Shown here: in pieces, positions 21,016 to 24,057 of the stretch
Position numbering within the stretch: the first letter of the stretch is position 1
Layout of the letters: each line of letters starts with the position of its first letter
Assembly (NCBI GenBank): GCA_945905815.1
Contig: CAMDQH010000006.1
Span: forward strand, 1 to 64,000
Length of the DNA: 64,000 bases
From: Bacteriovorax stolpii
Lineage (GTDB): Bacteria > Bdellovibrionota > Bacteriovoracia > Bacteriovoracales > Bacteriovoracaceae
Reading direction: 5' to 3'
Made by a program: the position numbers and the translations under genes
Notes under the pieces: model-generated
Database searches by the model: none
The model's input: the letters and a program-made list of their open reading frames with translations, nothing else
Told to the model about the DNA's origin: nothing

Positions 21016-23779
21016 AAGTATTGATGTATCAATTCCAAGGCATTCATTAACAGTAATAACTGGGCCTTCTGGATCTGGAAAATCTTCGCTCGCATTTGAT
21101 ACAATCTATGCTGAAGGTCAGAGAAGATACATGGAATCTCTCTCTAGTTACGCTAGACAATTTATAGGGCAAATTGAAGCCCCAGAAGTTGAAAGCATCA
21201 CCGGACTTTCTCCTGCAATTGCCATAGACCAAAAATCAACTACTAAAAACCCTCGATCAACAGTGGGAACAATAACTGAAATATATGATTATTTACGCTT
21301 GCTCTACGCCAGACTAGGCGATGCCCATTGCCCTGAAACAGGCGAAAAAGTTGCCAAACAATCACCACAACAAATTGTTGAGCAAATATTGAAATTTAAA
21401 ACCGGCATAAAGCTGCAGTTACTTTCACCTGTGATTCGAAACAAAAAAGGTGAACACAAAGAAGACCTCGGTAAGTTTTTAAGTATGGGTTTTTCAAAAA
21501 TTAGGCTAAATGGTGAGATTTTTAATCTTGATGACCAAGTTGTTATACAAAAAACTAAATTTAATAACATTGATATTGTTGTCGATCGTTTAGTCATGAA
21601 AGATGGAATTCAAACCAGACTCACTGATTCGGTAGAACATGCCTTGAAATTATCAGATGGGTATCTGGTGGTTCTAGCCGACGATAAAGAGCATTTTTAC
21701 AGCGAAAAAAATTATTCTTTTAAATCCGGCAAGAGTTATCCTGATCTTGAACCAAGATTATTCTCCTTCAATTCCCCACTTGGTGCCTGTCCAATTTGTA
21801 ATGGTTTAGGTATTTCTAAAACTTTCGACCTTGATAGCCTTTTACTTGATGAGACAATGAGCTTGGAAGATGGAGCAATTCCTATTCTAAAAAAGAACTC
21901 ATTTCTTATGCAAATGGTAAGGTCAGTTGCAGCTGCTGAGAAAGTTGATATTGAAAAGCCCTTTAATAAGCTCACTGAAAAATTTCTGCAACTTCTCTAT
22001 TACGGTAATGGTGAAAAAATTTATAATTATAAATTTGAATCTGAGAATTCATCTTGGAATTTCAAGAAAGAATTTCCTGGCATCATGGCATGGTTAGAAA
22101 AGAAGCATAAGGAATCTGAATCCGAAAAAACCAGGCTAGACTTAGAAGAATACATGATCATAAAGAAATGTCCTGGATGCAAAGGGAAAAAATTAAACCC
22201 GTTTGCTCTTGCAGCTACTCTTAATAATCAGTCAATTATTGATGTATGTGATCTCTCTATCAATGAAGCCGCTGAATTTTTCGAAAAACTTGAATTTTCT
22301 GGCAATCAGGCAATCATTGCTCAAAAAGTTTTAAAAGAAATTAAAGACCGGTTAAAATTTCTTTTAAACGTGGGCCTTAACTATTTAACTTTGAACAGGG
22401 ATGCAATGTCACTATCGGGGGGTGAATCTCAGAGGATTCGTCTCGCTACACAAATTGGGTCAGCTCTTTCTGGAGTATTATACGTTTTAGATGAGCCTAG
22501 TATTGGTCTTCATCAGAGAGATAATGAAAAACTGATCCAAACATTAATTAATCTAAGAGATATTGGGAATACTGTCTTGGTTGTTGAACACGATGAAGAA
22601 ACAATGCTTGCTTCAGACTATTTAATTGATATGGGTCCTCATGCTGGGCTTCATGGTGGAGAGGTTGTAGCGGCTGGAACTCCAGAAGAAGTCATGAAGA
22701 ATACAAAATCACTCACAGGAAAATATCTTTCTGGTATTAACAAAATCCATATTCCAACAGAGAGAAGAAAACTTTCTAATAAAATTATTTTAAACAAGGC
22801 ACGTGAAAATAATTTGAATGATGTTACGTTGCATCTCCCGCTAGGAGGACTCACTTGTATTACAGGTGTTTCTGGTTCTGGGAAATCTACACTGGTACAC
22901 AAAGTATTAATTCCGGCCGTGAAAAACTATCTTTCCCGTGGCAGAAGAGGAAGTTCGGCCAATTACCAATCTGTTACAGGTGTAGATAAAATTCAAGGAG
23001 TCATTGAGTTAGATCAATCTCCCATAGGAAGAACCCCGCATTCTAATCCTGCAACGTATACAGGGCTTTTTGACGACATCCGAAATATCTATTCAATGAC
23101 TAATGAATCTAAAATTCGTGGTTATAAATCTGGACGGTTTTCCTTTAACGTAAAAGGTGGGCGCTGCGAGAGCTGCGAGGGCAATGGATTATTAAAAATT
23201 GAAATGCACTTTCTGCCTGATGTTTATGTCACTTGTTCTGAGTGTCGCGGGTCCCGTTATAACAACGAAACCTTATCCATACTTTATCGAGGTAAAAATA
23301 TTGCTGATGTTTTAGCAATGAGTATTGAGGAAGCTGGCCCATTTTTCGAGAATCACCCGAAAGTTAACCGTGCCCTAAGAGTTATGAATGAGGTTGGTCT
23401 TGGTTATATAAAACTAGGTCAGCCTGCAACCACCTTGTCTGGTGGAGAAGCACAGAGATTAAAGCTTTCTCGTGAGCTTGCGAAATCAACAAAAGGTGCA
23501 ACACTTTACGTTCTTGATGAGCCTACAACTGGTCTTCACTTTGAAGATATTAACATCCTACTTAAATCACTTAATAAACTAGTTGATCAGGGACATTCGC
23601 TTTTAATTATTGAGCATAATCTTGATGTAATTAAAACTGCTGACTGGGTCATTGATCTGGGTCCAGATGGTGGTAAATTTGGCGGGCAAATTGTTGCTGA
23701 AGGCACACCGGAGACTGTGGCCAAGGTCAAAGGCTCATACACGGGTCATTACTTAGCGAAGGCATTGAAACAAAAATAA
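20972..23779 (+). CDS. uvrA: Excinuclease ABC subunit A
   Basis: Two ABC modules GPSGSGKSSLAFDTIYAEGQRRYMESLS and GVSGSGKSTL; zinc-binding CPGCKGKKLN and CESCEGNGLLKIEMHFLPDVYVTC. Confidence 0.97.
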   Translation: MDKIRVTKAKVHNLKSIDVSIPRHSLTVITGPSGSGKSSLAFDTIYAEGQRRYMESLSSYARQFIGQIEAPEVESITGLSPAIAIDQKSTTKNPRSTVGTITEIYDYLRLLYARLGDAHCPETGEKVAKQSPQQIVEQILKFKTGIKLQLLSPVIRNKKGEHKEDLGKFLSMGFSKIRLNGEIFNLDDQVVIQKTKFNNIDIVVDRLVMKDGIQTRLTDSVEHALKLSDGYLVVLADDKEHFYSEKNYSFKSGKSYPDLEPRLFSFNSPLGACPICNGLGISKTFDLDSLLLDETMSLEDGAIPILKKNSFLMQMVRSVAAAEKVDIEKPFNKLTEKFLQLLYYGNGEKIYNYKFESENSSWNFKKEFPGIMAWLEKKHKESESEKTRLDLEEYMIIKKCPGCKGKKLNPFALAATLNNQSIIDVCDLSINEAAEFFEKLEFSGNQAIIAQKVLKEIKDRLKFLLNVGLNYLTLNRDAMSLSGGESQRIRLATQIGSALSGVLYVLDEPSIGLHQRDNEKLIQTLINLRDIGNTVLVVEHDEETMLASDYLIDMGPHAGLHGGEVVAAGTPEEVMKNTKSLTGKYLSGINKIHIPTERRKLSNKIILNKARENNLNDVTLHLPLGGLTCITGVSGSGKSTLVHKVLIPAVKNYLSRGRRGSSANYQSVTGVDKIQGVIELDQSPIGRTPHSNPATYTGLFDDIRNIYSMTNESKIRGYKSGRFSFNVKGGRCESCEGNGLLKIEMHFLPDVYVTCSECRGSRYNNETLSILYRGKNIADVLAMSIEEAGPFFENHPKVNRALRVMNEVGLGYIKLGQPATTLSGGEAQRLKLSRELAKSTKGATLYVLDEPTTGLHFEDINILLKSLNKLVDQGHSLLIIEHNLDVIKTADWVIDLGPDGGKFGGQIVAEGTPETVAKVKGSYTGHYLAKALKQK

Positions 23780-24020
23780 TTAATTGTTCGCTGACAACTG
23801 AGGATAATTATTTTCAGTCATTTCAATAATTTCCAATTGCCCAAACAAGTCCGAAATACACATTTCTGTTTATCAAACAGAAATGTGTAGAGGACGCTAC
23901 AACTCTGAACCAGTTAGTGGACCTCCATGTCTTAAATGAAACAGGGGATTTCCACAAATTAGGTGGAAGACATGGATTTGGGCAATTGGAAATTATCCTC
24001 AGTTTTCTGCGAACAATTAA
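23780..24020. repeat. 241-bp nested inverted-repeat element (MITE-like or structured RNA)
   Basis: Outer arms 23780-23809 and 23991-24020 pair with 2 mismatches; inner arms 23832-23845/23977-23990; hairpins 23857-23889 and 23924-23976; AATAA at 23775-23779 and 24021-24025. Confidence 0.75.
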
Positions 24021-24030
24021 AATAATTCAT

Positions 24031-24057
24031 AAAAAAAGGCCCTCTTTCGAGGGCCTT
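24031..24057 (-). terminator. Terminator of the atpB-atpE operon
   Basis: Minus strand AAGGCCCTC-GAAA-GAGGGCCTT followed by a T run. Confidence 0.9.

Follow-up and report, generated by a model that had tools for sequence, protein, structure and literature searches.

The convergent junction of uvrA and atpE in the window (the whole 64,000-nt stretch of Bacteriovorax stolpii DNA analysed here) is filled by nested inverted repeats, which raises the question of whether a mobile element or a structured RNA lies between the two genes. The gene to the left is UvrA (TIGR00630, 1342 bits against a cut-off of 730), and its convergent neighbour is the ATP synthase c subunit, atpE (PF00137, 50 bits against a cut-off of 24). 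The evidence presented below indicates that the element is very probably a MITE, lacking a transposase and moved in trans by a transposase of the type found in congeners, with insertions at gene 3' ends.

The uvrA–atpE element, its copies and empty sites

The initial annotation described a 241-bp element (23780–24020) that starts at the base after the uvrA stop and is flanked by AATAA, and read it as MITE-like or as a structured RNA. All of its arms, the 15-bp perfect hairpin and the AATAA repeats were found at the coordinates claimed. However, comparison of copies, in which the 9-bp duplications that flank L001 and L133 fix the boundaries, gives an element of 237 bp, the outermost TT/AA pairs of the 241-bp version lying outside it. 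The AATAA repeats were rightly located but are the core of a 9-bp target-site duplication (TSD), AAAATAATT, instead of a 5-bp one; the element therefore begins two bases past the uvrA stop codon, which is itself part of the duplicated target (Table 1). Short, bounded by 28-bp terminal inverted repeats (TIRs) and without a transposase gene, the element has the make-up of a MITE.

Table 1. Features of the element in the window and its copies in the own genome
Feature	Position	Strand	Remark
Element read as MITE, one of nine full, cut or partial genome copies	23782..24018	.	copies 92–94% identical
Left TIR, AATTGTTCGCAGACAACTGAGGAT consensus with one mismatch here	23782..23809	+	
Right TIR, one mismatch against the consensus here	23991..24018	-	
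TSD, left copy, 9 bp, AAAATAATT	23773..23781	+	
TSD, right copy, 9 bp, AAAATAATT	24019..24027	+	
uvrA stop codon TAA, within duplicated target	23777..23779	+	same convergent junction in congeners
22-nt left-arm insertion, ATTTTCAGTCATTTCAATAATT	23810..23831	+	in all G000 copies reaching the left end (alignment)
Central hairpin, 15-bp perfect	23857..23889	+	perfect in the window copy only; 10 bp in others
Second inner arm, TCCATGTCTT/AAGACATGGA	23924..23976	+	
Terminator-like hairpin of atpE, AAGGCCCTC-tttc-GAGGGCCTT, T run on - strand	24036..24057	-	read by eye
Complete copies	C14:19604-19840; C5:179-415; C76:4-239		
Right-truncated copy	C16		
Copies cut by contig ends	C95:1; C14:1		
Right-end relics, 75 and 51 bp	C59 and C90		

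A sequence search of the own genome (3.0 Mb in 141 contigs) found the element to be multi-copy, with eight full, cut or partial copies besides that of the window. Because three contigs open within the repeat or at its margin, more copies may exist than were counted. The element had no match in plasmid and phage collections.

The uvrA end was well recovered in 25 of the 26 genus members, window included. Among the 24 congeners with a recovered end, nine (G019, G004, G007, G022, G005, G012, G013, G023, and G025) have the convergent uvrA–atpE junction without the element, with a gap of 28–93 bp. G019, one of the empty sites, has an A run and GCCCTCTTTCGAGGGC immediately after the uvrA stop, the latter being the terminator to the right of the window element. 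This terminator-like hairpin of atpE, which is absent from the list of the consensus terminator scan, is conserved there directly behind uvrA. The insertion is a clean presence or absence among congeners, as a mobile element at this junction had been expected to be, and it entered the stop codon of uvrA without harm to the gene.

Ends, target motif and partner IS

The ends AATTGTTCGCAGNNAACTGRGGAT were present in 13 of the 26 genus members in a pattern search, and a reversed control pattern had zero matches in the same search. These ends bound two kinds of elements, MITEs (mostly 235–270 bp) and ISs of 1302–1312 bp, and the TIR of the window element shares its 24 bp with the ends of the 1.30–1.31-kb ISs of congeners. 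Perfect 9/9 duplications are seen at the window copy and at L133, and the C14 copy has the duplication AACAATTTT. Of the 38 complete, mutually independent elements in the genus, 12 have flanks that match at 8 or more of 9 bases; shuffling gave a mean of 0.59 and at most 4 in 2000 rounds, and duplication lengths of 2–8 and 10–12 gave no clear excess. The other 26 elements have no clear duplication; such loss is common in old or rearranged ISs and is caused by inter-copy recombination, adjacent deletion, or decay (PMC11708052). The target consensus of the 76 flanks is the palindromic, AT-rich TAAnnnTTA (A at 78% and 70% at -8 and -7, T at 71% and 84% at -3 and -2). Multiple copies, TSDs, clean empty sites, and TIRs common to transposase-coding ISs bear out the MITE-like reading of the initial annotation.

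The partner ISs (1.30–1.31 kb, ends AATTGTTCGC) carry one intact ORF of ~364 aa and occur in six congener genomes (L066–L071). The six aligned transposases are 74–79% identical to the first one. A zinc ribbon (CxxxxC/CxxC) and an HTH are conserved among them, as are the candidate DDE residues, with D132, D218, and E271/E279 invariant. No Pfam family reached its cut-off against the partner transposase. The NCBIfam IS1 model NF033558 matched the zinc ribbon, the HTH, and the start of the catalytic domain at 42–50 bits (best E 4e-13), below its cut-off of 100. These domains and the 9-bp duplication, within the 8–9 bp of the IS1 family, are points of likeness, and the score under the cut-off and the single 364-aa ORF are points of difference; IS1 family ends are GG. 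By its sequence, the partner transposase appears distantly IS1-like, under every curated cut-off tested. An AF2 model reached a pLDDT of 51, with the ISCth4 transposase and retroviral integrases as the best PDB matches at low TM-scores; the alignment is too shallow for a reliable model, so these matches lend only weak support to a DDE fold.

Among 369 genomes of the phylum, 15 carry relatives of the transposase at E < 1e-30; one of these relatives, in another genus (G115), belongs to a 1495-bp IS whose 23-bp ends, AGTTGTGCAAGCACAACTGATGA, are perfect. The named relatives that carry the partner transposase are MAGs of the Bacteriovoracaceae, predatory-type bacteria of the phylum Bdellovibrionota. 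The partner transposase had no match in plasmid collections. In the own assembly of 141 contigs, no transposase match was obtained, and the sole trace of a partner IS is a 42-bp IS-end relic (C40:23685; L072 2186–2227), 90% identical to the IS of G025, so either the MITE family of the window is left without a partner or the partner IS was missed by the assembly. The relic adjoins genes that are tail-fibre-like by appearance only.

These elements suggest a mechanism in which a DDE transposase, supplied by the 1.30–1.31-kb ISs in other species of the genus, would recognise the 24-bp ends and move the transposase-less element in trans. The movement of the window copy itself is deduced, since no such transposase is left in the own assembly; with three of the 141 contigs starting inside the repeat, a transposase-bearing copy may be missing from it. 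The element would be pasted into the 9-bp AT-rich palindromic target, which is duplicated and often overlaps a stop codon; the insertions are found at gene 3' ends. As the element begins with AA, the stop would be kept or rebuilt and the length of the neighbouring gene left unchanged, and this preservation is probably the reason such insertions are tolerated. Older copies appear to have lost the rest of the non-coding DNA, one TSD copy included, so that the element touches both genes. The hairpin would require no function beyond paired inverted ends for the transposase.

Gene stop codons as insertion sites

The association with stop codons was measured as the distance to the nearest stop on either side, -1 to -3 being called flush, and compared with 183 non-disrupting motif sites of the 64-kb window alone, with ORF-based gene calls. 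Sites inside genes were dropped from this null because the AA of the element makes a stop in some frames anyway; a stricter null comprised the 92 motif sites with a stop within 200 bp. Thirty of the 38 elements lie within 10 bp of a stop (null, 27/183; stricter null, 27/92) and 20 are flush (null, 12/183; stricter null, 12/92). The TSD-bearing copies are within 10 bp in 8/12 cases (p = 6e-5, and 0.008 against the stricter null) and flush in 3/12, and the TSD-less copies in 22/26 and 17/26, respectively. In many elements, the boundary coincides with the end of a long ORF, on one side or on both, and the element completes the stop codon (TA/A at offset -2, T/AA at -1, the slash marking the boundary); the terminal AA completes the stop in many old copies.

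Comparison with relatives shows that, to within a few residues, the genes examined at filled sites keep their native ends. At L109, both genes finish at the same residue (FNF and AVGIK) as their orthologues at the unoccupied site of G008, whose stop codons are separated by two bases (TAA AT TTA); the right gene at L111 ends as in G018, and the genes at L103 and L104 end as in the empty G002 and G011. The genes at L108 overlap in the empty G008, and the right gene at L102 is shorter by about five residues. Nothing remains of the second TSD copy at L103 and L109, which shows that trimming after the insertion plays a part.

One convergent junction, between genes for an integral membrane protein and a peptidase-like protein (by inspection only), holds a MITE in G008 (L105), a 380-bp IS remnant in G002 (L110), and a decayed IS in G011 (L036). 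Such repeated occupation points to a recurrent target, possibly an insertion hot spot.

The stop-codon data fit both a transposase aiming at stops and selection leaving such insertions. In the latter account, which competes with active targeting and not with the MITE identity, insertion is guided by TAAnnnTTA but is otherwise random, and only copies at dense gene ends survive, to be trimmed later by deletions. Its chances appear evenly balanced. The motif alone lifts flush sites from 2% to ~7% of non-disrupting positions, trimming is seen at L103 and L109, and flushness is much stronger in TSD-less than in TSD-bearing copies. However, copies with intact TSDs already lie close to a stop even when the null is confined to sites near one, and unrelated elements have settled at one convergent junction in different species (L105 against L110/L036). 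Active targeting, an integration complex of the IS and MITE aimed at gene ends, with TAAnnnTTA as two convergent TAA stops three bases apart, is a tentative reading and somewhat doubtful. If true, an AA-ended element would restore any stop it hits and be adapted to tightly packed or overlapping convergent genes, leaving both proteins unchanged.

It is rather unlikely that the elements have been domesticated, their inverted repeats acting between convergent genes to terminate transcription in both directions or to stabilise mRNA 3' ends. Such a role would account for old copies persisting flush with both stop codons; orthologous insertions are kept in two species (L094/L108 and L095/L109), some IS ends give a hairpin with a T run (AAGTGGGGATAATATCCCCACTTTTTT), and at L102 a decayed IS stands in place of a lost native terminator. 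On the other hand, persistence may also be neutral, the native atpE terminator is still beside the window element, and the element itself is without a T run, as the initial annotation had remarked, the terminator scan listing none there.

At L102, a decayed 988-bp IS (1206–2193) separates two convergent genes that in the relatives G002 and G011 have a strong bidirectional terminator between them. L102 has lost this terminator, and its IS ends form hairpins followed by T runs. In full-length ISs (L067 282–330), AAGTGGGGATAATATCCCCACTTTTTT is a terminator-like hairpin made by the TIR itself, and it may block read-in transcription.

Relation to known systems, and the folded interior

The closest described case is MITEAba12/ISAba12 of Acinetobacter (PMC6382973), so that a MITE with a partner IS and a 9-bp TSD is already a known kind. 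There, too, a MITE is moved by an IS with matching TIRs, has an interior unrelated to its IS, and makes 9-bp AT-rich duplications visible in ~40% of copies. In contrast, MITEAba12 is 113 bp with 16-bp TIRs (GGCTTTGTTGCACAAA), has no target motif found beyond AT-richness, inserts within genes such as hns, and has no reported stop-codon pattern (PMC6382973). QMITE2 of Coxiella burnetii, as summarised in a later account (PMC5896051, via PMC10969869), has 23–29-bp TIRs, 7–9-bp duplications, and a core of 113–145 bp whose transcript has a very stable fold, but it comes from an unrelated organism and is likened by description, not by sequence. The IS1202 family and ISAjo2 (PMC10132070) share a 1.5-kb IS with 24–26-bp TIRs and a target bias, but target dif/pdif sites, not stop codons. 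Prokaryotic MITEs favour AT-rich intergenic DNA and give stable folds (PMC10969869).

No precedent for ISs or MITEs that target stop codons was found in a partial coverage of the literature, with subscription journals mostly outside it, so the missing precedent is weak evidence that the placement of this element family at gene stop codons, far above expectation, is new. The findings add an IS1-like transposase lineage outside all curated models tested, together with a pattern of insertion at native stop codons that can be measured and in which the first bases of the element complete the stop. They offer a clean case in which to ask how mobile DNA persists in ~90% coding genomes, and whether target choice or selection is responsible; with a 9-bp target that resembles stop codons and ends of 24 bp, the question is open to direct testing in vitro.

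The MITE families, as defined by their interiors, are restricted to one species or to the pair G002/G011. Species-own families with unrelated interiors (L097–L100, L113–L116, L117–L125, L127–L128, L104–L105, and L108–L109) have a similar length of ~235–270 bp, which suggests a favoured synaptic-complex length or repeated capture of new interiors. Derivation of MITE interiors from the ISs was rejected, since no MITE family matched any IS interior and L110 is the sole internally deleted IS among the elements.

The strand of the window element folds at -102 kcal/mol, compared with -47 +/- 4 in shuffled versions (z = -13, 0/200 as good). A folded interior is found only in the window's family (z of -4 to -8), other families being mostly at about -2 to +1, and the covariation term across four complete copies is about zero, with 1/74 pairs altered in both partners; the nested hairpins therefore belong to this MITE lineage and do not reflect a shared function. 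A structured RNA, transcribed as 241 nt in the uvrA 3' UTR and acting as a riboregulator or sRNA, could claim the very stable fold and the structured interiors of the species' own copies, but it is highly improbable given the lack of an Rfam family and of covariation, the unstructured interiors of sister MITE families with the same ends, and copies that are mobile and absent at orthologous junctions; this half of the initial annotation is not upheld.

The central hairpin has 10 paired bases in the six other copies covering that part, from which the window copy differs by one left-arm and five right-arm changes that give full pairing, as expected from template-switch correction of a quasi-palindrome or from the reverse loss in the other copies. 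At the gathering score, Rfam matched only tRNAs in the window and left the element unmatched. Two of the tRNA genes, 2163–2249 and 2321–2407 on the - strand and 71 bp apart, are each 87 nt, the size of tRNA types with a long variable arm.
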